DNA from: Campylobacterales bacterium
GTDB lineage: Bacteria > Campylobacterota > Campylobacteria > Campylobacterales > Nitratiruptoraceae
Reading direction: 5' to 3'
DNA length: 37,038 nucleotides
NCBI GenBank assembly: GCA_027065825.1
Contig: JAMONM010000059.1
Location: 1-37,038, forward strand
Shown here: positions 10,775 to 31,742 of the stretch, in pieces
How the letters are laid out: each line of letters begins with the position of its first letter
Numbering within the stretch: position 1 is the stretch's first letter
Position numbers and translations under genes: made by a program
Notes under the pieces: model-generated
What the model was told of the DNA's origin: nothing
The model's database searches: none
What the model saw: only the letters and a program-made list of their open reading frames with translations

Positions 10775-12082
10775 CTCGCCGCTCTCCATCGGTCTGGTTA
10801 TCATAGCCAGATTTTTTAGAGCTTCGTTTATATGCAACGCGAATATCTCCAGCTCGTTCTCCTCTAGAGGAGCTTTTGAGGCCAGAAGCTCCTCTAGAGC
10901 TTTTTCGGCCGCTTCGGTCTGTCTTTTGTTGATCAAGATGGTCTCTTCGAATCTGCCGAAACTATCTAGAATCTCTTTTAATTTATCGATTAGGGGAGAA
11001 ATATCCTGTTTTACGCTCAGCTTTAGGGTTATATATCCTTCGAATAGGCTCTCTTTGCTCTTTTGGGGAAGATCGGCTTTGTTCAATAAAACGACAACCT
11101 CTTTGTCCCGTGCCTCTTTTTTTAGAATCTCCAAAATCTTCATATCCTCTTTGTCAAATTCGCGTGAAAGATCGAACATCGCCAAAACGATATCGCTCTG
11201 CCTGACCGCCTCCAGGGATCTTTTGACCCCTACTTTCTCTATCTCGTCGAGAGTATCGCGTATACCGGCCGTATCGACGATTCTAACCAGATGCGTACCT
11301 ATTTTTATACTCTCTTCTATCGTATCCCTGGTGGTTCCGGCTATATCGCTGACTATCGCCCTTTCATAAGAAAGCAGCGCATTTAACAAAGAGCTCTTCC
11401 CTGTATTCGGTTTTCCTATTATGGCTATTTTAAATCCATCGAGGAGAGCCTGGCGTCTTTTACTGGACTCGATCATCCTTTTTAGATTTTGGAGTATCTC
11501 CTCCAGTTGAAAAAGCATCGATTCGAGCATATCCTGTGGAAGATCCTCTTCGGCGTAATCTATATTCACCTCCGCGTACGCCAAAATTCTGATTAGATCT
11601 TCTCTGATCTTTTCGACGGCCTTTTTCAGATCGCCTTTTAAGTGTCGCGCCAAAATCTTTGCGGCATCTTCGCTGCGCGCCTCTATCAGCTTGGCTATCG
11701 CCTCGGCCTCATCAAGATCAATTTTGCCGTTTAAAAAAGCTCTTTTACTGAACTCGCCGGGCATCGCTACCCGCGCACCGGCTTCGCATACTGCGTCAAG
11801 TACCATTTTCGCCACGGTCACTCCGCCGTGACACTGAAACTCTACGATATCTTCGCCGGTAAAGGAGAAAGGTGCTTTGAAATAGATAACTATTCCTCTG
11901 TCTATAAGCTCTTTGTTGAAATCGTATATATCGCTTAAAATCGCTCGCCGCGGTTCGAAATTCTCTTTTGCACAGAGGGTTTTGGCTATATTTAACGCAT
12001 CTGAACCGCTGACCCTGACTATGGCAATGGAGCCTATACCGTGAGCCGTCGCTATGGCAGCGATGGTGTCACTGGTTTTCAT
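10733..12082 (-). CDS. mnmE: tRNA modification GTPase MnmE
   Basis: GTPase that, with MnmG, adds the (carboxymethyl)aminomethyl group to U34 of certain tRNAs. Of 449 residues, the N-terminal tetrahydrofolate-binding domain covers about 1-120, helices flank the G domain, and the G domain shows GKPNTGKS (223-230), DTAGIRDT (270-277) and NKADL. The C-terminus is the family's conserved FCLGK, whose Cys is needed for modification, so the gene is complete. Its start overlaps jag by 14 bases, making it the last gene of the rpmH-rnpA-yidD-yidC-jag-mnmE series. Its 3' end overlaps the FAD-protein gene tail to tail. Confidence 0.97.
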   Translation of the reverse strand: MKTSDTIAAIATAHGIGSIAIVRVSGSDALNIAKTLCAKENFEPRRAILSDIYDFNKELIDRGIVIYFKAPFSFTGEDIVEFQCHGGVTVAKMVLDAVCEAGARVAMPGEFSKRAFLNGKIDLDEAEAIAKLIEARSEDAAKILARHLKGDLKKAVEKIREDLIRILAYAEVNIDYAEEDLPQDMLESMLFQLEEILQNLKRMIESSKRRQALLDGFKIAIIGKPNTGKSSLLNALLSYERAIVSDIAGTTRDTIEESIKIGTHLVRIVDTAGIRDTLDEIEKVGVKRSLEAVRQSDIVLAMFDLSREFDKEDMKILEILKKEARDKEVVVLLNKADLPQKSKESLFEGYITLKLSVKQDISPLIDKLKEILDSFGRFEETILINKRQTEAAEKALEELLASKAPLEENELEIFALHINEALKNLAMITRPMESGELLDKMFGEFCLGK

Positions 12083-12989
12083 TTCTTCTGAAGTTGTTGA
12101 CTATTATAAATTTTTCGCCCTGTCTGTTTGTTCTGATGGCCACATACTTATCCGGAAAGGCGGCTCTTAGCTCTCTGAGCGCTATTTGGACCAAAACCCC
12201 GTCAAGAGGCTTGGTTTTGCCGCTGCCTTCGTTTTTTATTCGCTCAATTACCGGCTTTAAATAGTTTCTTATCATCTCTTCTTGAGTTTTTAGAAACTCG
12301 GCTATTTCCAATCTGATCTGTAGAGAGTATCTGGAATTTATCCAGTTAAAAAGCATATACGAAAGAGCCTTGTATCTGTAGCCCTCTTTTCCTATCAACA
12401 GGGCGGAATCTTCTCCCGAAAACTCTATCAAAAGCGTATTTTCGTCATAAGGGGAGACCTTTACTCTCTCCAGCCTGAAGCAGGAGTGGGAAAAGAGCTC
12501 GTTTAATTCTCTCTCCACCTCCGTTGCGATCTCCTCTATAGATTCGCTATCTTTATAAAAATTGCTAAATTCCTCATCAATTTTAGGCAGAACTCTTTTT
12601 GGTCTCTCCTCGGCCTTTTTTTGCGGTTGCTCTTTCTTTTTTGGCTCTTTTGACTCTTTTGGCTCCTGCGACATAGGCGCGACTTTTTGTGAAGGAAGAG
12701 GAGTCTCATCTTTTAGATCTTTTTTCTCCGTTTCCTGAGTCTCCTTTGATATGCTGTTTTCGCTGGTGGATTCGGCGGCTTTACCCTCTGTTTTAATAGG
12801 TGCCTCTTTCGCTTCTTTCTCTTTTTTGCAGCTTGCGAGTATGATCGCGTTCTTTTTGCCGATTCCCAAAAAGCCTTTGGATGGGTTTTGAACTATCTCC
12901 ACTTCGAGTTCGGTTATCGAACACCCCAGCTCTTTCGAAGCCAGTCTGTAAGCCTCTTCGAGAGTGGGAGCCTCTATTTTCTTGCTCAT
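12069..12989 (-). CDS. jag: KhpB/Jag-type RNA-binding protein
   Basis: RNA-binding protein of 306 residues. A Jag N-terminal domain occupies about 1-52 (TLEEAYRLASKELG, then SKGFLGIGKKNA). A long Lys/Glu/Pro-rich, probably disordered linker covers about 55-135. A KH-II domain follows at about 170-240, with LIGKEGYRYKALSYMLF as its GxxG region, and a C-terminal R3H-like region ends ...EKFIIVNNF. The Arg-xxx-His signature of true R3H domains is not seen (IALRELRAAFP stands in its place). Members bind many RNAs and form complexes with KhpA in Gram-positives; the role here is inferred. The start overlaps yidC as ATGA. Confidence 0.88.
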   Translation of the reverse strand: MSKKIEAPTLEEAYRLASKELGCSITELEVEIVQNPSKGFLGIGKKNAIILASCKKEKEAKEAPIKTEGKAAESTSENSISKETQETEKKDLKDETPLPSQKVAPMSQEPKESKEPKKKEQPQKKAEERPKRVLPKIDEEFSNFYKDSESIEEIATEVERELNELFSHSCFRLERVKVSPYDENTLLIEFSGEDSALLIGKEGYRYKALSYMLFNWINSRYSLQIRLEIAEFLKTQEEMIRNYLKPVIERIKNEGSGKTKPLDGVLVQIALRELRAAFPDKYVAIRTNRQGEKFIIVNNFRRNENQ

Positions 12990-14581
12990 TTTTCATCCTT
13001 TTGAGCAGTTTTTCTGCTCTCGAAAGCTTTGTTGACTATTAACTGTTGAATGATCGAGAGCACGTTGTTAACGAACCAGTACAGCGTAAGACCGGCCGGG
13101 AAAGTGACGAAAAAGAAAGTAAATACGATAGGCAGATATTGAAAAATTTTCTGCTGTATCGGGTCGGTTATGGTTGTAGGGGTGATTTTTTGATGGATAT
13201 ACATGGTTACCCCCATCAATATAGGCAATATAAAATAGGGATCCATAACGCTTAGATCTTTGATCCATAGTATCCAAGGGGCTCCTTTGAGCTCTATGGC
13301 GTTCAATAAAACTCTATATATAGCGAAAAATACGGGTATTTGTAGCAACAGAGGCAGACAACCGCCCATAGGATTTGCGCCATGTTTTTTATACAACTGC
13401 ATCATGTGGGCGTTCATCTTTTGCGGATCGCCTTTGTATTTTTGCTGAATTTCTTTGATTTTCGGAGCCAGATCTTTAAGCTTCTGCATAGAAACCATAC
13501 CCTTCCATGTCAAAGGAAAGAGCAAGATTCTGATAAATATGGTCAAAACCACTATCGCCCAACCCCAATTGCCAATATATTCGTAGATAGCCAGCAAAAT
13601 TTTAAACATAGGCTTGGCTATAAAGGTAAAGAACCCGTACTCTATAACATCCGTAAGTTCTGGATTTATACTCTTTAAAACTCTATAGTCTTTGGGACCT
13701 AGGTATCCTTTTACCTCGAAACTCTTTTCCCCCTCCACAAATATGATCGGGTTTTCCTCTTTATCCTTTGATATTACTACGTTGAGTCCCTTTTGAAGAT
13801 CGTAAAAAAAGGTAGTGTAGTATCTATCAACCGCGGCGGCGATTTTCGCTTTTCTAAAGCTTTCGATACCTTTTGCGTCACCGTCGTCTATCATAGTTAT
13901 GGTATTGTCGGCCTCTTTGATCAATACCCCGTGAAAGGTATATCCGTCGACCCTTACATCCGGTCTGTAGCCGGGAGAGATGTAGTATCTTTTATCCTCG
14001 CTCAGATCCACTTTTAGTTCGTAATGCCCGTCCGGATAGATTTTGATAATCTTTTCCACCTCTACCTTCGAGAGCGATTGCTTCAATCTAAGCGTAACGG
14101 GCTCTTTGTCGATTTTTATATCTCTTGTATCGCATACGTACGGAGTTTTGAAAGCCTCTTCGTTTAACTTTTCGTCGGAAAATCTAATCTCCAGCGCCTT
14201 TGGCAGCTTGTCATCGGCAAAAAGCTCTATATGCTCTCCGCTTTCGGTAACGAATCTGCTGTCTTTTAGCATTACCTGGGAAATTCTTCCGTAATCGTCT
14301 ATACTGATCGTAAAATGCTCAGATTCTATTTTCACCAACTCTTTTCCGGAGGATCTCTGCGTAGAAACCGGAGCGCTCTCGTAAGAGCCTTCTATCCTTT
14401 TCGAGGTCTCTGGCTTCTCGCCGCTTTGTACGGCCGGAGCGGATAGATTTTGTTCTATCGCGGTTTGAGTCTGATTCTTTTGAGGTTTCGGCATGAAAAA
14501 ATAGTCATAAATCAAAAACACTCCCAAAGACAACACTATAGCCAGTATAACTCTTTGATTGGCATCCATCTTTTCAAACAT
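12986..14581 (-). CDS. yidC: membrane protein insertase YidC
   Basis: Inner-membrane insertase of 531 residues that helps Sec-dependent and Sec-independent proteins fold into the membrane. The first helix is at residues 11-29, followed by a Ser/Gln/Glu-rich linker and the large periplasmic P1 domain (about 80-315) typical of Gram-negative YidC. The catalytic five-helix core begins near 317; the conserved hydrophilic-groove Arg is Arg351 in IFIRILLFPLTWKG, followed by the cytoplasmic coiled hairpin KLKDLAPKIKEIQQKY and GGCLPLLLQIPVFFAIY (407-423). It overlaps yidD by 8 bases upstream and jag by 4 downstream, so the genes are translationally coupled. Confidence 0.97.
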   Translation of the reverse strand: MFEKMDANQRVILAIVLSLGVFLIYDYFFMPKPQKNQTQTAIEQNLSAPAVQSGEKPETSKRIEGSYESAPVSTQRSSGKELVKIESEHFTISIDDYGRISQVMLKDSRFVTESGEHIELFADDKLPKALEIRFSDEKLNEEAFKTPYVCDTRDIKIDKEPVTLRLKQSLSKVEVEKIIKIYPDGHYELKVDLSEDKRYYISPGYRPDVRVDGYTFHGVLIKEADNTITMIDDGDAKGIESFRKAKIAAAVDRYYTTFFYDLQKGLNVVISKDKEENPIIFVEGEKSFEVKGYLGPKDYRVLKSINPELTDVIEYGFFTFIAKPMFKILLAIYEYIGNWGWAIVVLTIFIRILLFPLTWKGMVSMQKLKDLAPKIKEIQQKYKGDPQKMNAHMMQLYKKHGANPMGGCLPLLLQIPVFFAIYRVLLNAIELKGAPWILWIKDLSVMDPYFILPILMGVTMYIHQKITPTTITDPIQQKIFQYLPIVFTFFFVTFPAGLTLYWFVNNVLSIIQQLIVNKAFESRKTAQKDEK

Positions 14582-14912
14582 CTCGACCCTTTTTTCCGCT
14601 GAAATTAAAATCTTTTATCACATAGTAGAGGTTTTTACCTTTTGGAACCAGCCAATATTTGACGGCAATTTTTCCGTAACTTTTTCTTTTTAGCTCTTTT
14701 TTGACAACCGGATACTCTATACCGCCTTCGAAAAGCTGGTTGCATCTTAGTATTCTAAAGGCCGTCGATACCGCCGCCTTGTACCAAGGTTCGTTTTCAA
14801 CCCTCCACCTGGCGTATTCTGAACAGGTTGGATAGTATCTGCAGCTGCCTGGCGAAATTATCGAGAAAAACCTCTGATAAATCTCCAGCAGCCACAAAAG
14901 AGTCCTCTTCAT
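14574..14912 (-). CDS. yidD: membrane protein insertion efficiency factor YidD
   Basis: Small DUF37 protein of 112 residues that supports YidC-dependent insertion, usually attached to the inner face of the membrane by an amphipathic N-terminus. The hallmark ISPGSCRYYPTCSEYA lies at residues 19-34, with the two conserved cysteines Cys24 and Cys30. The C-terminal extension after about residue 75 is lysine-rich and longer than in E. coli YidD (85 residues). It starts in an ATGA overlap with rnpA and ends inside the first codons of yidC. Confidence 0.95.
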   Translation of the reverse strand: MKRTLLWLLEIYQRFFSIISPGSCRYYPTCSEYARWRVENEPWYKAAVSTAFRILRCNQLFEGGIEYPVVKKELKRKSYGKIAVKYWLVPKGKNLYYVIKDFNFSGKKGRDV

Positions 14913-15244
14913 GATCTGGCGCCGATCTTTGGCAAAACTCTTTCCAAGGCCCGTCGTATTTCATCAAAATCGGCCTCCAAAACGCCTCTTTTGGCGACAA
15001 AAACGTAGAGTCCGCCGCCAAAACCGGAACAGTATTCCCCAAAAAGCCCTCTCAGTCTTCGTTTGGCTCTGTTTCTTTTGACGGCGTTTCCTATCTTTTT
15101 GCTGGCTACGAAGCCCACCTTTTTCTCTTTGGATGGCAGATAAAAGAGAACGAAAAAGGGCGTATGAAACCCTCTACCTCTTTTATAAGCCGCCGTAAAC
15201 TCCCTACTCTCCCTTATCGGCGAAAAATCTTTTATACCGCCAAT
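14909..15244 (-). CDS. rnpA: ribonuclease P protein component RnpA (probable AUU start)
   Basis: Protein subunit of RNase P, which trims the 5' leader of tRNA precursors. The RNA-binding signature [20 protein letters not shown] is clear. The first usual start in frame is a GTG at 15118, which would give only 69 residues and lose the N-terminal fold. The frame is open back to a stop at 15311-15313 and encodes [20 protein letters not shown], which looks like a normal RnpA N-terminus. With the ATT at 15242-15244 as start, the protein is 111 residues, the usual size, and GGGAG lies 6 bases upstream. An ATA at 15233-15235 is the other candidate. This start would overlap the end of rpmH by 13 bases. 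The gene is certain; the exact start is inference. Confidence 0.85.
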
Positions 15245-15410: not shown

Positions 15411-15452
15411 AGGCTAAGTTTACTAAAGAGTAGCTTAAATCTCATTTAGCCT
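15411..15452 (-). terminator. possible terminator/hairpin after the CBS-protein gene
   Basis: AGGCTAA at 15411-15417 pairs with TTAGCCT at 15446-15452, enclosing an inner small hairpin (TACT/AGTA). The arm overlaps the stop codon of the CBS gene and lies just before the rpmH promoter region. On the minus strand it is followed by TCAAAAATC rather than a T-run, so termination is uncertain. Confidence 0.35.
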
Positions 15453-15840
15453 AAATATCTTCCAGTAAAACTCCGATAATATCGGTCATCGTAATTATTC
15501 CGTGCAGTTCGTTGTCGTCTACTACAAGCACCCTTTTTATGGAGTGATTCACCATCATTTTGGCCACATATTTCATCTGTACCTTTCTAGTTACGCTAAT
15601 TGCCGGAATAACCGCTATATCATATACGTTCAACAGATCGATGTCGCCCTCTTGCGCCACTATGGACTGCAGAACGTTTTTGAAGGTAACGAGACCATAA
15701 GCTCCCTCTTTGCAGTTTTTATCGACTATCACCGATTTTATGCGATGTTTTTTCATCAGCTCCAAAACCTCCCTTACTGGAGCGAGCTGATCGACTATCA
15801 CCAGCTTCTCTTTCGGGGTCATAATGTCTTCAACCAGCAT
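15451..15840 (-). CDS. CBS-domain pair protein linked to a DUF1538 transporter
   Basis: Small cytoplasmic protein of 129 residues made of two CBS motifs and nothing else. The first spans about 6-60 (VEDIMTPKEKLVIVDQLAPV ... IKSVIVDKN), the second about 75-127 (IPAISVTRKVQ ... IKRVLVVDDNELHGIITMTDI). CBS pairs usually bind adenosine nucleotides (AMP, ADP, ATP, SAM, c-di-AMP) and gate transporters or enzymes. It is the last gene of a unit with a P-II-like protein (10-base gap) and the DUF1538 membrane protein. A ribosome site AAGGAG precedes the ATG. The likely role is ligand-dependent control of the DUF1538 protein; this is inference from context. Confidence 0.85.
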   Translation of the reverse strand: MLVEDIMTPKEKLVIVDQLAPVREVLELMKKHRIKSVIVDKNCKEGAYGLVTFKNVLQSIVAQEGDIDLLNVYDIAVIPAISVTRKVQMKYVAKMMVNHSIKRVLVVDDNELHGIITMTDIIGVLLEDI

Positions 15841-15850
15841 CCGCTACTCC

Positions 15851-16201
15851 TTATAGAATGGTCTTGATTTCGTTTTCGAACTTGTGAAGCTCCTCTTTGT
15901 TTAATCCCGCCACGTGATCCAGAGAAAAGGTAAATATCATGGATCCGTTTTCGTCGTTTTCGATATCCAGCGCGTCTCTTAAAGCCTTCATAACCCTCAT
16001 CGAAAGCTTTCTAGGCAAAATGAACAGCAAAACGGTAACGCTCTCTTCCAGGGTGACACCGAAAAAGATCTTTTTCTCTTTGAGGCCTATGTTTCTGCCG
16101 TGCAAAATGGTAACTGCGCCGGCACCGGCCCCTTTTGCGATTTCGATGGCCTCCTCCTCGCTATCTTGCGGAATTATAGCCGTAAGAGCCACAAACTTCA
16201 T
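15851..16201 (-). CDS. P-II-like signalling protein linked to a DUF1538 transporter
   Basis: A 116-residue protein with the ferredoxin-like layout of P-II family regulators: strand [11 protein letters not shown], helix [13 protein letters not shown], strand [11 protein letters not shown], then a shortened T-loop region, strand [11 protein letters not shown], helix [14 protein letters not shown] and a C-terminal [11 protein letters not shown] segment. The T-loop tyrosine used for uridylylation in GlnB/GlnK is not visible, so this is probably an unmodified sensor that binds nucleotides or small ligands. Classical P-II proteins block transporters such as AmtB; SbtB does the same for SbtA. The start overlaps the DUF1538 stop as ATGA, which points to a partner role with that protein. 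Confidence 0.8.
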
Positions 16202-17694
16202 TTTCCGTCCTTTCGTCTGATTTCTGCGTAGATCCCGTAGAGCATAACGGTTATCATGGGAAACAAAGAGGCAAAAGCGATCAGTCCAAAACCGTCTATT
16301 AGAGGATCCCGGCCTTCAATATTCTGCGCCAGCCCCAATCCCAAAGCGGCAACGAGCGGAACGGTGACGGTCGAGGTTGTCACGCCGCCGCTGTCGTAAG
16401 CTATGGGAACGATATATTTGGGGGCAAAATATGTTATAAAAATCACCGCCACATAGCCGACGATTATATAATAGTGCAACTCCCCGCCGGTTACGATCCT
16501 GTACGCTCCCAGAGCAATTCCTATCGCCACTCCCATAGCCACGAAGAATCTCAAAAGCAAAGAGTTTATTCTGCCCGAACTTACCTCCTGGGCTTTTATC
16601 GCAACCGCCAAAAGCGCTGGTTCGGCCATCGTGGTGGAAAAACCTATCAAAAAGGCAAAGAGATAGATCAGCCATAAACTGCCGGTTGAAGTAAGCTGAA
16701 AAGCCAGAGTCTCTCCGATTGGAAAGAGTCCGGTCTCAAGTCCTACGATAAAAGCGTACAGACCCAAAATAACGAGAAAGACCCCCAAAAGCACTCTTTT
16801 TATGTGGGGGAGAGGTTTTTTGATGACCCCGTACTGGAAAAAGGCTATAACGGCCAAAATAGGCAAAACGTCCTTGATTACCGCCACCAGATCGAGAAAT
16901 ATCTTTTTTAATTCGAACCTGCTCTCGCTTATAATCTCCTCTTTCGCTGCAACGGCCAGATCTTTGGCTATCTCCACCGTTTCTCCTTGAAAAAACTGGG
17001 CCGCAATTCCGTAGATCTGAACAAAAATCATCGGAGTAAGCGAGGCAAAAGCAATCAACCCAAAACCGTCAATAACGGGATTTCTACCCTTTATACTCGA
17101 AGCCAGTCCGATACCCAAAGCCGCCACCAGAGGAACGGTAACGGTCGAGGTGGTTACACCTCCGCTGTCGTAGGCGAGCCCTACTATCTCTTTGGGTGCG
17201 AAAAAAGTAATGGCTACTACGATCACGTATCCCAAGATTATATAATAGTGTATCGGATGTCCCAAAACTATCCTCAGCACCCCCAAGGCAATGGCGAAAC
17301 CGACTGAAAAAGCGACCGTCAATCTAAGAAAAAACGCGTCTATTCTACCGTGACTGATAGTTTCGGCCTTGTTCGCGACCGCTATAAGAGCAGGTTCGGC
17401 CACCGTAGTGGAAAACCCTATCAAAAAAGCGAAAAAGAGGAGCCAAAAAAGACTACCTTTTTTGGCAAACTCAACGGCCAGATTCTCTCCGGCCGGAAAA
17501 ATACCCAGCTCCAGTCCCCTAATAAACAGAGCCAGTCCCAAAGCCACAACGATCAAACCCAGAGAAATTATCGCAAAATCCTCTGGCACTTCGCCTATGA
17601 CGAATATCTGAAAAAAAGCTATCACTCCCACTATAGGAGCCAGATCCCTAAAGGAGTCTTTTAAATCTTTTATAAAAACGGAAACTGCGCCCAT
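16198..17694 (-). CDS. DUF1538 family integral membrane protein, putative transporter
   Basis: A 498-residue membrane protein with a clear internal duplication. Each half (about 1-235 and 262-492) contains GFSTT(V/M)AEPAL (93-103; 351-361) and the identical block [20 protein letters not shown] (starting at 175 and 433), plus an [11 protein letters not shown] segment. About 12 or more hydrophobic helices are evident. The inverted or tandem two-repeat build and polar motifs inside membrane segments are typical of transporters, but DUF1538 has no known substrate that I can name. A hydrophilic linker (about 238-262) joins the halves. Upstream is a TATAAT box. It forms an operon with P-II-like and CBS-pair genes downstream, suggesting a transporter gated by nucleotide-binding regulators. 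Confidence 0.88.
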
Positions 17695-26405: not shown

Positions 26406-27605
26406 ATGAGAGCGATCGCAATATTTTTAACTCTATCTATCACGTTATCGACTCTTTTTGCACAGACGTTAAACGATCTGATAAAAGAGGCCTTAAAACA
26501 CCATCCGGACCTGCAACAAATAGAGATACAAAAAAGAGCTCTAAAAGCCAGGGCTCAGAGCGCTATAACAACCGATCCCGCCGAACTGCAATTGGGAGGT
26601 GGTTACGCCCTCGACAACGACTCCAGCGGCGGAAAAGAGTTTTTTGCCGGTATCTCTAAAGAGTTTTTTACCCCCGCTGTCAAACGAGCTCTGCAAGAGA
26701 GTTCCGAGCTTCTATTTAAATCTGAGCTTCTTAGGCTAGAAAGCCGATTATTAGAGAGTATATATACGATAGAATACCTCTATTTCGATAGCTGTTTACA
26801 AAAGAAAAAGCTGCTGTTAAAAGAGAAACTCTACGAAGAGTTCAACCGTTTTGCCCGGAAAATGCGAAGAGCTCAAGAACTGGGCGAAATCTCAAAAAAG
26901 GATCTTATAACCATTGAGTCCGAGTTGGCAAAAGACGAATTGGAGCTCAAACTTCAAAAAAGCTCCTACAGAGCCTCATTGATATCTTTGCAAAGAGAGC
27001 TGTACAGACCTAAACCTATCGGTGAACTCTCCTGTAGCGAGGATTTTGAAACCTTCAAAATAGAGCTTAACGAAAAGTCCGCGGTGAAAAGATCGCTGAA
27101 CATAAAATCGAAAGAGCTAAAAATCAAAGCTCTAAAAAGAGCTTTGAAAAAGTTCGACGCTCTATTTGACAGATACACTCTCTCGGCCGAATATTCGGAC
27201 GAATTCGGAACTACGAGATACGGCGGCTATATTTCGCTACCTCTATATTCCCTCTCGAAAAAAAAAGAGCTGGAAAAAAAGATTTTAATGGAGCAGATAT
27301 CGCTGGAGACGCTAAATATGCATGCCCAAAAACTAAAAACCGAAAATATGATAAAAGAGTTAAAAGAGATACTTCATACTATCCACGACTCGATAGCTCT
27401 ATATAAAGAGCTTGAAAAAGAGAAAAGTCGCCTGGTTCAGATGGTTCAACGCAGCTACCTCAGCGGAGAAAGCTCCGTAACCGAGCTCATCAGCGCCAAA
27501 AAGGAGCGCGTGTATATCTATCTAAAAACGATAGATCTACAGCAAGAATATCTAAAAAGGCTGTTCGATATGTATAAAACAGCGTCCATCAAGGAGATAA
27601 GATGA
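26406..27605 (+). CDS. TolC-family outer-membrane efflux protein (CusC/CzcC-like)
   Basis: Outer-membrane channel of a tripartite pump, 399 residues. A signal peptide is MRAIAIFLTLSITLSTLFA, cleaved before QT. The rest is mostly long amphipathic helices with heptad-like charged repeats, as in the two-fold TolC repeat (NDLIKEALKHHPDL near the start; the second repeat is near residues 210-390). It is shorter than E. coli TolC (about 470 mature), as usual for CusC/CzcC relatives in this group. An AAAGGAAAAAG ribosome site precedes it and the stop overlaps the adaptor gene as ATGA. Confidence 0.88.
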   Translation: MRAIAIFLTLSITLSTLFAQTLNDLIKEALKHHPDLQQIEIQKRALKARAQSAITTDPAELQLGGGYALDNDSSGGKEFFAGISKEFFTPAVKRALQESSELLFKSELLRLESRLLESIYTIEYLYFDSCLQKKKLLLKEKLYEEFNRFARKMRRAQELGEISKKDLITIESELAKDELELKLQKSSYRASLISLQRELYRPKPIGELSCSEDFETFKIELNEKSAVKRSLNIKSKELKIKALKRALKKFDALFDRYTLSAEYSDEFGTTRYGGYISLPLYSLSKKKELEKKILMEQISLETLNMHAQKLKTENMIKELKEILHTIHDSIALYKELEKEKSRLVQMVQRSYLSGESSVTELISAKKERVYIYLKTIDLQQEYLKRLFDMYKTASIKEIR

Positions 27606-28678
27606 AAAAAACGTTACTGGCTTTAATTACTGTGTGCGCTCTTTTTGGAGCGGAACCGATAGTTTTGAGCAAACAGCAGATATTAAACTGGCAGATAAAA
27701 ACGGCTAAACCCCAAATAGCGCACAAACTGCCTCTTGGCAACTTCATGATGGAGGTTAAGGCTCCGGCTTCGATGTATAGAACCGTTTCGCTCCCTTTTG
27801 AGGCTTCGATAGTTAAAATTTACGTAAATAGATACGACAAGGTCTCCCGGGGAGCCGCCCTTTTTCAGGTAACCTCGAAGGAACTGATCGAAAGGCAAAA
27901 CGAACTGGCAGCTCTCGGCATAGAGCTTTCGAGTCTAAAAATCGAAAACGAAAGAAAAGGTAGGCTCTGCGCCGAAGGCATCATTGCTCAAAAGGAGTGC
28001 ATATACTCTCAAACCAGACTCAAGACGCTGCTTGGCAAAATAGAAAAAACCAGATCATTGCTGAGACTCTACTCTCTCGATAAGGATATGATCAAAAACG
28101 TAGAATCGGGGAAAAAGATCTACAGATATCTTACCGTTCGTTCGCCTATAGAGGCGGTTGTCGCGGATCTGCATCTGCATTCAGGATCGGTCGCGGAAGT
28201 TTCGAAACCTATTGTTACGCTCCTTTCCACCGATAAGAAAATTCTAGACGCCATGATTCCGGTAGAGAGAGCCAAAACCCTAAAACCAAAAACCGAAGTT
28301 GCCCTAGAATTGGGCGAAACCTATTACGCCGCGAGCGTCAAAAACGTTGCGCAGATAGTACAAAGCACAAATCAAACCCAAAAGGTCCGATTCGAAATAA
28401 AAGAGAGACTCGATCTACCGGTAGGATACAGAACCGAAGGAAGAGTATATATCTTTAAAGAGAGTCTAAAAGTACCGAAAATAGCCGCCATCTTTTATGA
28501 CAAGAACTACTATCTGTTCAAAAGAGGCAAAAAAGGTTTTATTCCAATAAAGATCGACATTCTATCTGATAGCGAAAACTTTTTCTATATACCCAAAGAG
28601 ACCCTGCAAAAGAGCGACGAAATAGTGGTAGAAGGTTCTATGGTACTAAAAGGAATGATGGAGCAAAGCGATGATTGA
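27602..28678 (+). CDS. periplasmic adaptor of an RND metal pump (CusB/CzcB-like)
   Basis: Membrane-fusion protein of 358 residues that links the inner-membrane pump to the outer-membrane channel. A signal peptide is at MKKTLLALITVCALFGA, cleaved before EP. A barrel-sandwich (lipoyl-like) half with FEASIVKIYVNRYDKVSRGA is followed by a helical hairpin (about 95-155) containing two cysteines (GRLCAEGIIAQKEC), the second lipoyl half (VRSPIEAVVADLHLHSGSVAE), a beta-barrel and a membrane-proximal domain. The N-terminal methionine cluster of E. coli CusB is not obvious; FMMEV and scattered Met are all that is visible. Overlaps the pump gene by 8 bases. Confidence 0.9.
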   Translation: MKKTLLALITVCALFGAEPIVLSKQQILNWQIKTAKPQIAHKLPLGNFMMEVKAPASMYRTVSLPFEASIVKIYVNRYDKVSRGAALFQVTSKELIERQNELAALGIELSSLKIENERKGRLCAEGIIAQKECIYSQTRLKTLLGKIEKTRSLLRLYSLDKDMIKNVESGKKIYRYLTVRSPIEAVVADLHLHSGSVAEVSKPIVTLLSTDKKILDAMIPVERAKTLKPKTEVALELGETYYAASVKNVAQIVQSTNQTQKVRFEIKERLDLPVGYRTEGRVYIFKESLKVPKIAAIFYDKNYYLFKRGKKGFIPIKIDILSDSENFFYIPKETLQKSDEIVVEGSMVLKGMMEQSDD

Positions 28679-31600
28679 CGCCATAATTAAATTCTCGCTA
28701 TCCCAAAGACTGTTTGTTATGCTTTTGGCTCTGGTAATATTGGGATTCGGTATAAAATCCTACAAAGAGCTTCCTATAGACGCGTTTCCGGACATTTCGC
28801 CCACTCAGGTAAAGATTATCATGAAAGCCAGCGGAATGACCCCCAGCGAAGTGGAATCCAGAATAACCACGCCGATAGAGCTGGCGATGCTGGGAATCCC
28901 CCACCAAACCATCGTAAGATCTATATCCAAATACGGTCTTTGCGATATAACGATAGATTTTGAAGAGGGAACTGATATATACTGGGCCAGGCAGCAAGTC
29001 AGCGAAAGACTAACCGCCATAAAAGACGAACTGCCCAAAAACGCCGAAGGCGGTATGGCGCCAATCAGTACGCCTTTGAGCGATATTTTGATGTTTACGA
29101 TAGAATCGGACTCTCTCTCCCTGATTGAAAAAAGAACTATTCTGGACTGGATTATAGCGCCAAAAATCAGGAGCATAAACGGCGTAGCGGAAGTAAACTC
29201 CCTGGGAGGTTTCGTCAAAACCTATCAAATAACGCCGAACCTATCTAAAATGCAGGCTCTGGGAGTAACTATGGAGGATATCCGCCTCGCTCTACAGAAC
29301 AACAATCAAAACGACGGGGCGGGCAGGATCAGCGTAGGACCGGAGAGTTTTTACGTACGTAGCGTAGGACGGATAAAAAACATTGAAGATATAGAGATTC
29401 GCGCCGTAAAAAACGTAGACTCCAAGGTTATCAGAATAAAAGACGTAGCCACCGTAGGTATCGGACACCTAACCAGAGCCGGTTTCGTAACAAAAGACGG
29501 TATATCAGAAGCGGTCGAGGGTATAGTTTTGTCGCTAAAAGGAGCCAACGCGGCAAAAGTTATAACCCAGGTAAAAGAGGAGCTCTCACAGCTTGAAAAA
29601 TCTCTTCCGCCCGGCACGAAAATAAAACTGCTCTACGATAGAAGCGAACTGGTGGATATCGCCACCTATACGGTTAAAAAGGCGCTCATCGAGGCCGTAA
29701 TTCTGATCATAGTCATACTGCTGCTTATGTTGGGGAATATCGCTTCGGCCGTATCCGTGGCTCTAATACTGCCTTTTGCCCTGCTTATGAGTTTTATCGC
29801 TATGAAAATGTTCGGTCTCAGCGCCAATTTGATGAGTCTGGGAGGTTTGGCAATAGCTGTGGGAATGCTGGTGGATTCGGCCGTCGTTATGGTTGAACAC
29901 ATAACCGCCGAACTGGGCAACAAAAGACATAAAAGATGCTCTAAAATGGAGATAATACTACGTGCCGCAAAAGAGGTAGCCCCCTCTATAGTGACAGGAG
30001 TGTTAATTATAATTATAGTATTTATGCCTCTGTTGACTCTCGAGGGGCTCGAAGGCAAACTCTTCAAACCCGTGGCTCTGAGTATAGTTTTTGCGCTTTT
30101 TAGCTCGCTGTTGCTGGCGCTGACGCTGATTCCCGTTATTAGCTATATGCTTTTGAAAATCAGACCCGATAAAGAGTCTTTCGTTATGAGGGTTCTTTTA
30201 AAAATTTACAAACCTACGCTGATGTGGGCGATCAAGCGTCAGTGGGTTGTGGTTGCGATAGCTCTGACGCTGATGGGAGCTGCCGGATATATGTTTACCA
30301 AAGTGGGAAAAACATTTATGCCTACCATGGATGAGGGCAGCATAATAATCGGAATAGAGAAAAACCCCTCCATCAGCCTGGAAGAGAGTCGCGAAATGGA
30401 TCTAAAAATTCAGCAAAAAATTCTAAAAGAGGTTCCCGAGGTCCTCTCGATCGTAGCTAGAACCGGAACGGACGAACTTGGACTGGACCCGATGGGTCTA
30501 AACGACACGGATACATTTTTGGTTCTAAAACCGAAAAACGAGTGGAGAAAACCGGACAAAGAGTGGCTGATCAACGAACTTAGAAAAGTTTTGGAACAGT
30601 TTCCCGGTATTGAATACAGTTTTACCCAGCCGATAGAGATGAGGGTTTCGGAGATGTTAACCGGCGTCAGAGGCGATCTGGCGGTTAAAATATACGGTAG
30701 CGACCAGAACAGGCTCAACGAACTGGGCAAACAGATAAAAGATATCATTGAACAGGTACCCGGCAGCAGCGACGTTTACAAAAAAGCCAACGAAGGCTTT
30801 GAGTACCTCGAACTGGTATTCAATCACGAAGCGCTCGGAAGATACGGATTGAGCGAGTCGGATATAGCTGACTATCTAAAAACTCTGGTAGACGGAGTTA
30901 AAATCGGCATTGTTCAGGAAGGGTTAAAGAGGTTCGACCTGGTCATTAAAGGCGATAGCGAATACCAAAAATCCATAGAGTCTCTCAAGAGCCTAAACTA
31001 TGTATTGAACGACGGAACGGTCATAGCTTTGGAGAGACTCGTAACCTTTAGGCAAAGCGGAGGACCCGTTCAGATAGAGCATGAAAAAGGATTAAGAAAA
31101 ACCGTCGTTCAAAGCAACGTGGAGGGGCGTGATCTGGTAGGATTTGTGGACGACGTAAAAAAAGCTATACAACGAGAAATAAAACTGCCTCCAGGATACT
31201 TTATCGAATACGGCGGCGAATTCGAAAACCAGCAAAGAGCGGCCAAAAGATTGATGATTATCGTGCCGATTTCCATATTTATGATATTCGTGCTGCTATT
31301 TATATCTTTCAACTCTTTGACTCAGGCCCTGCTGGTACTGGTCAATATTCCTCTTGCTCTGGTAGGCGGAATAGCGGGACTGTACTTTACCGGCGAATAT
31401 CTATCCGTTCCAGCCTCAGTGGGTTTTATAGCCCTTTTGGGAATTGCCATTCTAAACGGCGTGGTGATGGTTAACTATTTCAATCAACTGGTACTTAACG
31501 GCCTGAGCGTAAAAGAGGCTGTTATAACCGGAGCGGCCAGAAGACTCAGACCGGTTTTGATGACGGCTCTAATAGCCGCTTTGGGGCTTTTGCCTCTAAT

Positions 31601-31742
31601 GTTCGCAACTGGCCCAGGATCCGAAATACAAAGGCCCCTGGCTATCGTGGTCATCTACGGATTGGCCAGCTCAACACTGCTGACGCTGGTAGTTTTACCC
31701 ATTTTATATCTGAGATTTATCAAGGATCTCAACAATAGATAG
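28671..31742 (+). CDS. heavy-metal efflux RND pump (CzcA/CusA family)
   Basis: Inner-membrane proton-driven pump of 1023 residues with the duplicated six-helix plus periplasmic-porter layout. N-terminal helix ends in ELPIDAFPDISPTQVKI, typical of the heavy-metal (HME) branch. Helix 4 carries AVGMLVDSAVVMVEH, with the proton-relay Asp near residue 402. The porter domain has MRVSEMLTGVRGD. Compared with E. coli CusA, only one of the three copper-binding methionines has an approximate counterpart (EMLTG), and the third is Leu (RYGLSESD), so a divalent metal such as Zn, Co, Ni or Cd is as likely as Cu/Ag. It ends next to a strong hairpin. Confidence 0.92.
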   Translation: MIDAIIKFSLSQRLFVMLLALVILGFGIKSYKELPIDAFPDISPTQVKIIMKASGMTPSEVESRITTPIELAMLGIPHQTIVRSISKYGLCDITIDFEEGTDIYWARQQVSERLTAIKDELPKNAEGGMAPISTPLSDILMFTIESDSLSLIEKRTILDWIIAPKIRSINGVAEVNSLGGFVKTYQITPNLSKMQALGVTMEDIRLALQNNNQNDGAGRISVGPESFYVRSVGRIKNIEDIEIRAVKNVDSKVIRIKDVATVGIGHLTRAGFVTKDGISEAVEGIVLSLKGANAAKVITQVKEELSQLEKSLPPGTKIKLLYDRSELVDIATYTVKKALIEAVILIIVILLLMLGNIASAVSVALILPFALLMSFIAMKMFGLSANLMSLGGLAIAVGMLVDSAVVMVEHITAELGNKRHKRCSKMEIILRAAKEVAPSIVTGVLIIIIVFMPLLTLEGLEGKLFKPVALSIVFALFSSLLLALTLIPVISYMLLKIRPDKESFVMRVLLKIYKPTLMWAIKRQWVVVAIALTLMGAAGYMFTKVGKTFMPTMDEGSIIIGIEKNPSISLEESREMDLKIQQKILKEVPEVLSIVARTGTDELGLDPMGLNDTDTFLVLKPKNEWRKPDKEWLINELRKVLEQFPGIEYSFTQPIEMRVSEMLTGVRGDLAVKIYGSDQNRLNELGKQIKDIIEQVPGSSDVYKKANEGFEYLELVFNHEALGRYGLSESDIADYLKTLVDGVKIGIVQEGLKRFDLVIKGDSEYQKSIESLKSLNYVLNDGTVIALERLVTFRQSGGPVQIEHEKGLRKTVVQSNVEGRDLVGFVDDVKKAIQREIKLPPGYFIEYGGEFENQQRAAKRLMIIVPISIFMIFVLLFISFNSLTQALLVLVNIPLALVGGIAGLYFTGEYLSVPASVGFIALLGIAILNGVVMVNYFNQLVLNGLSVKEAVITGAARRLRPVLMTALIAALGLLPLMFATGPGSEIQRPLAIVVIYGLASSTLLTLVVLPILYLRFIKDLNNR

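Follow-up and report, generated by a model that had tools for sequence, protein, structure and literature searches.

Transporters of the DUF1538 family have a studied member in UmpAB of Halomonas zhaodongensis, which is described as a Na+(Li+,K+)/H+ antiporter and makes E. coli KNabc tolerant of NaCl, LiCl, and pH 8.0; umpA or umpB singly was inactive, and co-expression of both worked in E. coli (PMC5484666). UmpAB has been reported as a heterodimer, and a machine-learning study counted DUF1538, in the part of its text available, among pH-adaptation families (PMC13255231). Two systems in which a PII protein meets a transporter served as models for the locus described here. In GlnK-AmtB the PII protein is linked to its transporter and controls it (PMC10710835, in extract), and in SbtB-SbtA, a PII-like protein with a Na+/HCO3- symporter, the model is the docking of the T-loop (PMC8352866, in extract). 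A search of the UmpAB paper for the terms P-II and CBS gave no mention of either (PMC5484666), and among the matches listed in the open-access literature no publication was found that ties UmpAB to a PII or CBS protein. As far as we found, the PII-like neighbour of the transporter, although already annotated as a 'P-II family nitrogen regulator', has apparently not been discussed in the literature.

The three-gene unit of the window

This study focused on a three-gene unit in a 37,038-nucleotide stretch of DNA from a Campylobacterales bacterium, the whole of which is referred to as the window. The initial annotation, made from the sequence alone, had described a tight unit of three genes for an uncharacterised transporter, a P-II-like protein, and a stand-alone CBS pair. 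The term uncharacterised has to be given up for the family, since UmpAB is a studied Na+(Li+,K+)/H+ antiporter (PMC5484666, in extract), while the unit itself was found as described, with all three open reading frames in place on the minus strand, an ATGA overlap, and a gap of 10 bases between the PII-like gene and the CBS gene. The features are as follows:

15451..15840, minus strand: stand-alone CBS pair, 129 aa (two Pfam CBS domains)
15851..16201, minus strand: PII-like protein, 116 aa, with a short T-loop and a degenerate B-loop
16040..16084, minus strand: short T-loop, residues 40-54 (limits set by hand), with a mostly conserved aromatic pair, F46-F47; a low-confidence loop in the model
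16198..16201, minus strand: ATGA, 4-base overlap of the antiporter stop and the PII-like start
16198..17694, minus strand: fused UmpAB-type DUF1538 antiporter, 498 aa, two homologous halves (Pfam PF07556 twice, and NCBIfam)
16228..16860, minus strand: second DUF1538 repeat, UmpB-like half, with AEPA (E358) and YDSGG (D434) motifs
17005..17634, minus strand: first DUF1538 repeat, UmpA-like half, with AEPA (E100) and YDSGG (D176) motifs

The ATGA overlap likely couples translation of the antiporter and PII-like genes, and a 4-base overlap between these two genes was present in 65 of the 112 loci measured. A promoter scan returned three promoter-like sites where 3.2 were expected, so that none is claimed. 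Terminator-like sites, which are pattern matches, numbered 10 against 4.0 expected (sd 1.9) and lay mostly within genes; a site at 17829-17802, among the two longest, falls near the end of the upstream 874-aa gene and, as a pattern match only, would agree with transcription of the trio on its own. Judged by eye, this upstream gene is ClpB-like, and the genes at 12069-15118 on the minus strand, downstream of the trio, are those for Jag, YidC, YidD, and RnpA. Homologues of RnpA and YidD hold their place downstream of the trio in four of five relatives (L004-L007). On the plus strand, positions 26406-31742 carry what appears by eye to be a CusCBA-like operon of an outer-membrane factor, an adaptor, and an RND pump.

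The 498-aa membrane protein contains two copies of DUF1538 (Pfam PF07556, E 1.5e-140, two stretches). It passed the NCBIfam equivalog for UmpA, NF041627 (522.2 bits over two stretches, cut-off 490), and scored below that for UmpB, NF041628 (449.7 bits, cut-off 500), and was therefore filed as a relative within the DUF1538 family and not as UmpB itself. Both of the motifs that had been noted as twofold do occur twice, GFSTTxAEPAL starting at residues 93 and 351, and a second motif, of 14 letters, at residues 175 and 433. The acidic residues E100, D176, E358, and D434 were invariant in 158/158 aligned antiporters. Both repeated motifs lie at or beside helix breaks in each half of the model predicted for a fused relative, a position in which a secondary transporter built of two repeats would be expected to have its ion sites. 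The protein had no sequence match in the PDB, and its fold was not identified, the fold searches with the fused model having been filled by the PII domain. From its sequence, the window locus appears to encode a DUF1538 (UmpAB) family antiporter that exchanges monovalent cations for protons, an activity known from one relative.

The PII-like protein of the window matched the Pfam P-II family below threshold (14.2 bits, cut-off 25, E 0.055), and was among the eight members of alignment A4 that fell outside the 51 of 59 matching that family at E<=0.01. A profile of the family matched solved PII proteins in the PDB (best 3.5e-6), and the AF2 model of the window protein, a monomer with a pLDDT of 79.7, has a ferredoxin-like PII fold, for which Foldseek returned SbtB (6mmc, E 2.6e-6, probability 1.00) as well as CPII and GlnK. 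The A4 profile gave no significant match to E. coli GlnK (hhalign probability 0.5%, E 0.13), so that the P-II-like assignment, which was upheld, rests on the relatives that match Pfam P-II, on the solved proteins matched by the family profile, and on the predicted fold. No NCBIfam family was assigned to the PII-like set. The T-loop is short, as had been noted: a hand alignment places about 14 residues between G39 and S54, where E. coli GlnK has about 20. Across 171 aligned PII-like domains G26 and T31 were invariant, T31 corresponding to Thr29 of GlnK in a rough alignment of the loops, and the aromatic pair at 46-47 was mostly kept, as FF, as FY in fusions, and as FL in a fifth of the split class.

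The window protein lacks the canonical B-loop TGxxGDGKI (motif as given in PMC6516651). A degenerate B-loop is found across the PII-like domains, with the fusions retaining more glycines. The window protein has no arginine at the positions of GlnK R101/R103, in an alignment to GlnK that is rough in the loops; these are the C-loop arginines of canonical PII proteins. It contains no tyrosine, and so lacks the tyrosine of T-loop uridylylation, and no cysteine, and so lacks the C-terminal CGPxGC redox loop, which is conserved in some SbtB homologs according to the available extract of PMC8352866. It is plausible from the sequence that the protein has a ligand, and its binding of nucleotides could be lost, given the missing B-loop motif and C-loop arginines. 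A separate canonical P-II is encoded elsewhere in the same genome (contig C83), which makes the window protein a specialised paralogue.

The CBS pair also proved to be as described, with two CBS domains in a protein of 129 aa (Pfam PF00571, two stretches, 61.2 bits, cut-off 24, E 1.2e-16). Its second domain carries T117-x-x-D120, and the T/S-x-x-D pattern, presumably a ribose-binding signature, is kept among 122 aligned proteins, with D in 94% of them. The matches of the pair to HhpR, PrdR, and similar NCBIfam families were set aside as generic CBS matches, far below cut-off.

Linkage and fusion of the PII-like protein and the antiporter

Within the phylum of the window, 249 genomes were searched: 40 of them contain PF07556, and 39 of these 40, but no others, match the PII-like profile. 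The fortieth (G075) has, by inspection, two divergent PII-like ORFs adjoining the transporter, giving a PII-like neighbour or fusion in 40/40 (39 by search, one by inspection). Genomes with both, DUF1538 only, PII-like only, and neither numbered 39/1/0/209 (Fisher p ~7e-45, a value that ignores shared ancestry), and a six-sequence profile (A1) had no match in the 209 phylum genomes without DUF1538. The 40 genomes contributed 43 loci, arranged, with UMP for the antiporter, as UMP-PII-CBS (22), PII-CBS-UMP (3), a UMP-PII fusion ORF (12), UMP-PII (5), and UMP-PII-PII (1). Co-conservation of the three-gene order, put forward initially as a check, thus held for the PII-like gene, present in 43/43 loci, and not for the CBS gene, which was found in 25/43 and not found in 18/43; the latter include two loci that could not be judged, one at a contig edge (L032) and one in masked DNA (L096, an N stretch after residue 63 or 64 of the PII-like protein). 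There was no CBS gene within 1.5 kb of any of 26 fusion loci (L032 having no downstream DNA). The CBS gene is frequent but optional, and the earlier suggestion of a two-input system is weakened to the extent that it is not general, since the second sensor was not found in those 18 loci and stands beside none of the fusions. In two cases (G192:C44, L087, and G211:C58, L092) a genome with the standard trio also encodes another, divergent DUF1538 protein of 511 aa, which has a separate PII-like neighbour of 111 aa.

A second sample comprised 274 genomes of Gammaproteobacteria, the class of Halomonas gemina (L117, G264). DUF1538 was present in 90 and the PII-like protein in 96, with 87 common to both (both, DUF1538 only, PII-like only, neither: 87/3/9/175; Fisher p ~1e-56, again ignoring shared ancestry). 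Divergent PII-like genes adjoin the transporter in the three DUF1538-only genomes (G411, G462, G502), so a PII-like protein is encoded in 90/90 DUF1538 genomes of this sample (87 by search, 3 by inspection), and over both samples in 130/130, which bears out the expected co-conservation of this gene with the transporter. Two of the divergent PII-like proteins, of 384 and 392 aa, apparently contain more than one PII-like stretch and lie beside a divergent DUF1538 protein (L283 2226-3380, L289 1974-3152). The two genes were on one contig within 2 kb in 85/90 genomes and on different contigs in four, and their place in G401 was not listed. Seven of the nine PII-like matches without DUF1538 were weak (E 9e-4 to 1e-4) and two were strong: in G365 the contig ends directly upstream of the PII-like gene, and G458 has PII-CBS with no transporter in the 1,380 bases upstream nor elsewhere in the genome. 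Forty loci of this sample were arranged as UmpA-UmpB-PII-CBS (30), UMP-PII-CBS (6), PII-CBS-UMP (1), UMP-PII-UMP (1), and without a transporter (2); they were picked from the list of PII matches, which biases adjacency, and the count of 85/90 is the fairer one. L252 and L266 (PII-CBS, no antiporter on the contig) were left out of the antiporter locus counts.

A scan of named genome records, limited to the best 80 of 572 relatives and overlapping the phylum sample (e.g. L176 and G210), gave 54 loci of UMP-PII-CBS, 4 of PII-CBS-UMP, 4 with an extra PII upstream, 14 fused, and 4 at a contig edge, which end right after the antiporter with no neighbour visible. In L122, L149, L159, and L166, the antiporter has a PII-like gene on either side, the extra one immediately upstream and the usual one downstream. 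Five of nine plasmid records with DUF1538 were examined; an annotated 'P-II family nitrogen regulator' adjoins the transporter in four, and the fifth, unannotated, has a double-PII ORF. The Bacillota plasmid records L110, L111, and L112 show a DUF1538 protein followed by an ORF of 217-229 aa with two PII-like stretches.

The PII-like domain forms the C-terminal part of the transporter in 12/43 phylum loci and in 14 of the best 80 of 572 named-record loci, two sets that overlap. The fused proteins are about 640-690 aa long, with a linker of about 45 residues joining the second DUF1538 repeat to the PII domain. They occur in records of Poseidonibacter, Aliarcobacter, Arcobacter, Sulfuricurvum, Sulfurimonas, and Thiovulum (among the best 80 of 572) and in the single-contig genomes G137, G144, and G222, which makes an assembly fault unlikely. 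The predicted model of one of them (L180, monomer, pLDDT 82.7) has a PII fold at residues 530-636, with Z scores of 9.2-10.2 to SbtB (6n4a), GlnK, CPII, and the SbtB of the SbtA complex. These natural fusions show physical coupling of the PII-like domain and the transporter. At L114, a PII-CBS-UMP unit is preceded on the same contig by what appears to be the end of a fused UMP-PII gene, so that two systems can sit side by side.

Pairwise distances among 122 loci were correlated at 0.71 for UMP-PII, 0.69 for UMP-CBS, and 0.88 for PII-CBS, values uncorrected for the species tree; the best of 500 shuffles for UMP-PII reached 0.07. The distance set held 158 of 168 loci (seven common architectures, joined antiporter of 380-560 aa, no X in antiporter or PII), of which the 122 have a CBS gene. 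The PII-CBS-UMP units of Thiomicrospira (L115) and of a second-sample locus (L239) are, after each other, nearest to Campylobacterota copies in all three genes, and given this closeness the unit has probably moved as a whole.

Proposed gating of the antiporter and alternative explanations

The near-constant PII-like partner, the fusions, and the frequent CBS sensor suggest that cells gate cation/proton exchange by an internal signal. We consider it probable, with room for doubt, that the locus specifies an UmpAB-type antiporter gated from the cytoplasm by a dedicated PII-like partner, with an accessory CBS regulator in this lineage. Three PII-like chains would assemble into a trimer and bind the antiporter from its cytoplasmic side, where the short T-loop with the aromatic pair may act as a plug or lever. 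Sensed in the PII clefts, by the CBS pair, or by both, a small-molecule signal, most likely adenine nucleotides, would set the rate of cation/proton exchange. We infer the trimer, the T-loop docking, the ligand, and the sign of regulation, and the same applies to the words nucleotide-controlled and two-input in the initial annotation. A fuller version, which is tentative and somewhat less likely than not, would make this the first PII-gated cation/proton antiporter. In it UmpAB would be trimeric and would exchange ions at a rate controlled by an energy or second-messenger signal; a dedicated PII-like trimer, permanently fused to the antiporter in some lineages, would pass that signal on, and the CBS pair would be an optional second input. 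Gating of this kind predicts that UmpAB is a trimer, or else that PII is able to work otherwise. Counting against gating by the PII-like partner are the UmpB score below cut-off, the loss of the B-loop motif and C-loop arginines of canonical PII, the optional CBS gene, and the two genomes (G365 and G458) with a strong PII-like match and no DUF1538 match.

The linkage observed would also fit a PII-like protein that serves the antiporter constitutively, as a structural subunit or assembly factor, and not as a ligand-responsive switch; near-obligate linkage, fusions, and a degenerate nucleotide motif all agree with such a role. However, umpA and umpB alone gave salt tolerance and antiport in E. 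coli (PMC5484666, in extract), which makes the PII-like and CBS partners more likely regulators than essential subunits, even if a host PII may have stood in, and the double-PII, multi-PII, and extra-PII arrangements look regulatory. A constitutive subunit is regarded as unlikely, and gating by the PII-like partner is preferred.

Less likely again is that the physiological substrate is another ion, such as bicarbonate, with cation antiport as one facet and the PII-like protein sensing carbon status in the manner of SbtB/CPII. SbtB and CPII are among the closest solved folds, and several carriers belong to sulphur-oxidising genera, which are autotrophs, but Marinobacter, Vibrio, and Clostridia, which are heterotrophs, also carry DUF1538. 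Moreover, Na+, Li+, and K+/H+ antiport was measured for UmpAB (PMC5484666), and DUF1538 is listed with families of pH adaptation (PMC13255231), both as given in extracts of these sources. That the gene order is a neutral, co-inherited cluster with no functional coupling, in favour of which it may be said that the distance correlations take no account of the species tree, hardly deserves further consideration, as it is already contradicted by the fusions, by several gene orders with equal content, by split and fused forms of the antiporter, by recurrence in two broad samples and in annotated Alphaproteobacteria and Bacillota plasmids, and by the count of zero DUF1538 genomes lacking a PII-like protein in the two samples (130/130).

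If the antiporter is indeed gated by its PII-like partner, a partner that is near-universal and naturally fused would bring the homeostasis of pH, sodium, and potassium within the reach of PII signalling. With the fusion proteins, gating can be tested directly in a single polypeptide.

Comparison with known systems

The locus can be set beside several described systems. UmpAB of Halomonas zhaodongensis belongs to the same family and has two homologous DUF1538 domains, but these are encoded there by two genes and in the window by one fused protein. SbtB-SbtA is similar in having a small PII-like gene beside a transporter, and SbtB was among the closest predicted folds; it differs in its transporter family, and the window protein is without the cysteine R-loop. 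In the available extract of PMC8352866, no fusion or CBS gene is mentioned for that system. GlnK-AmtB involves an ammonium channel and a PII protein with a long T-loop bearing Tyr51 and a canonical B-loop, whereas the PII-like protein of the window has no tyrosine. CPII, which binds bicarbonate and ADP, shares the PII-like fold and appeared in the match list of the window model, but has a carboxysome context, unlike the window locus. Finally, OpuA, MgtE, and CorB/MpfA resemble the window locus in that a CBS pair is tied to a transporter, and differ from it in that their CBS pair is a domain of the transporter, while here it is the product of a separate and optional gene.
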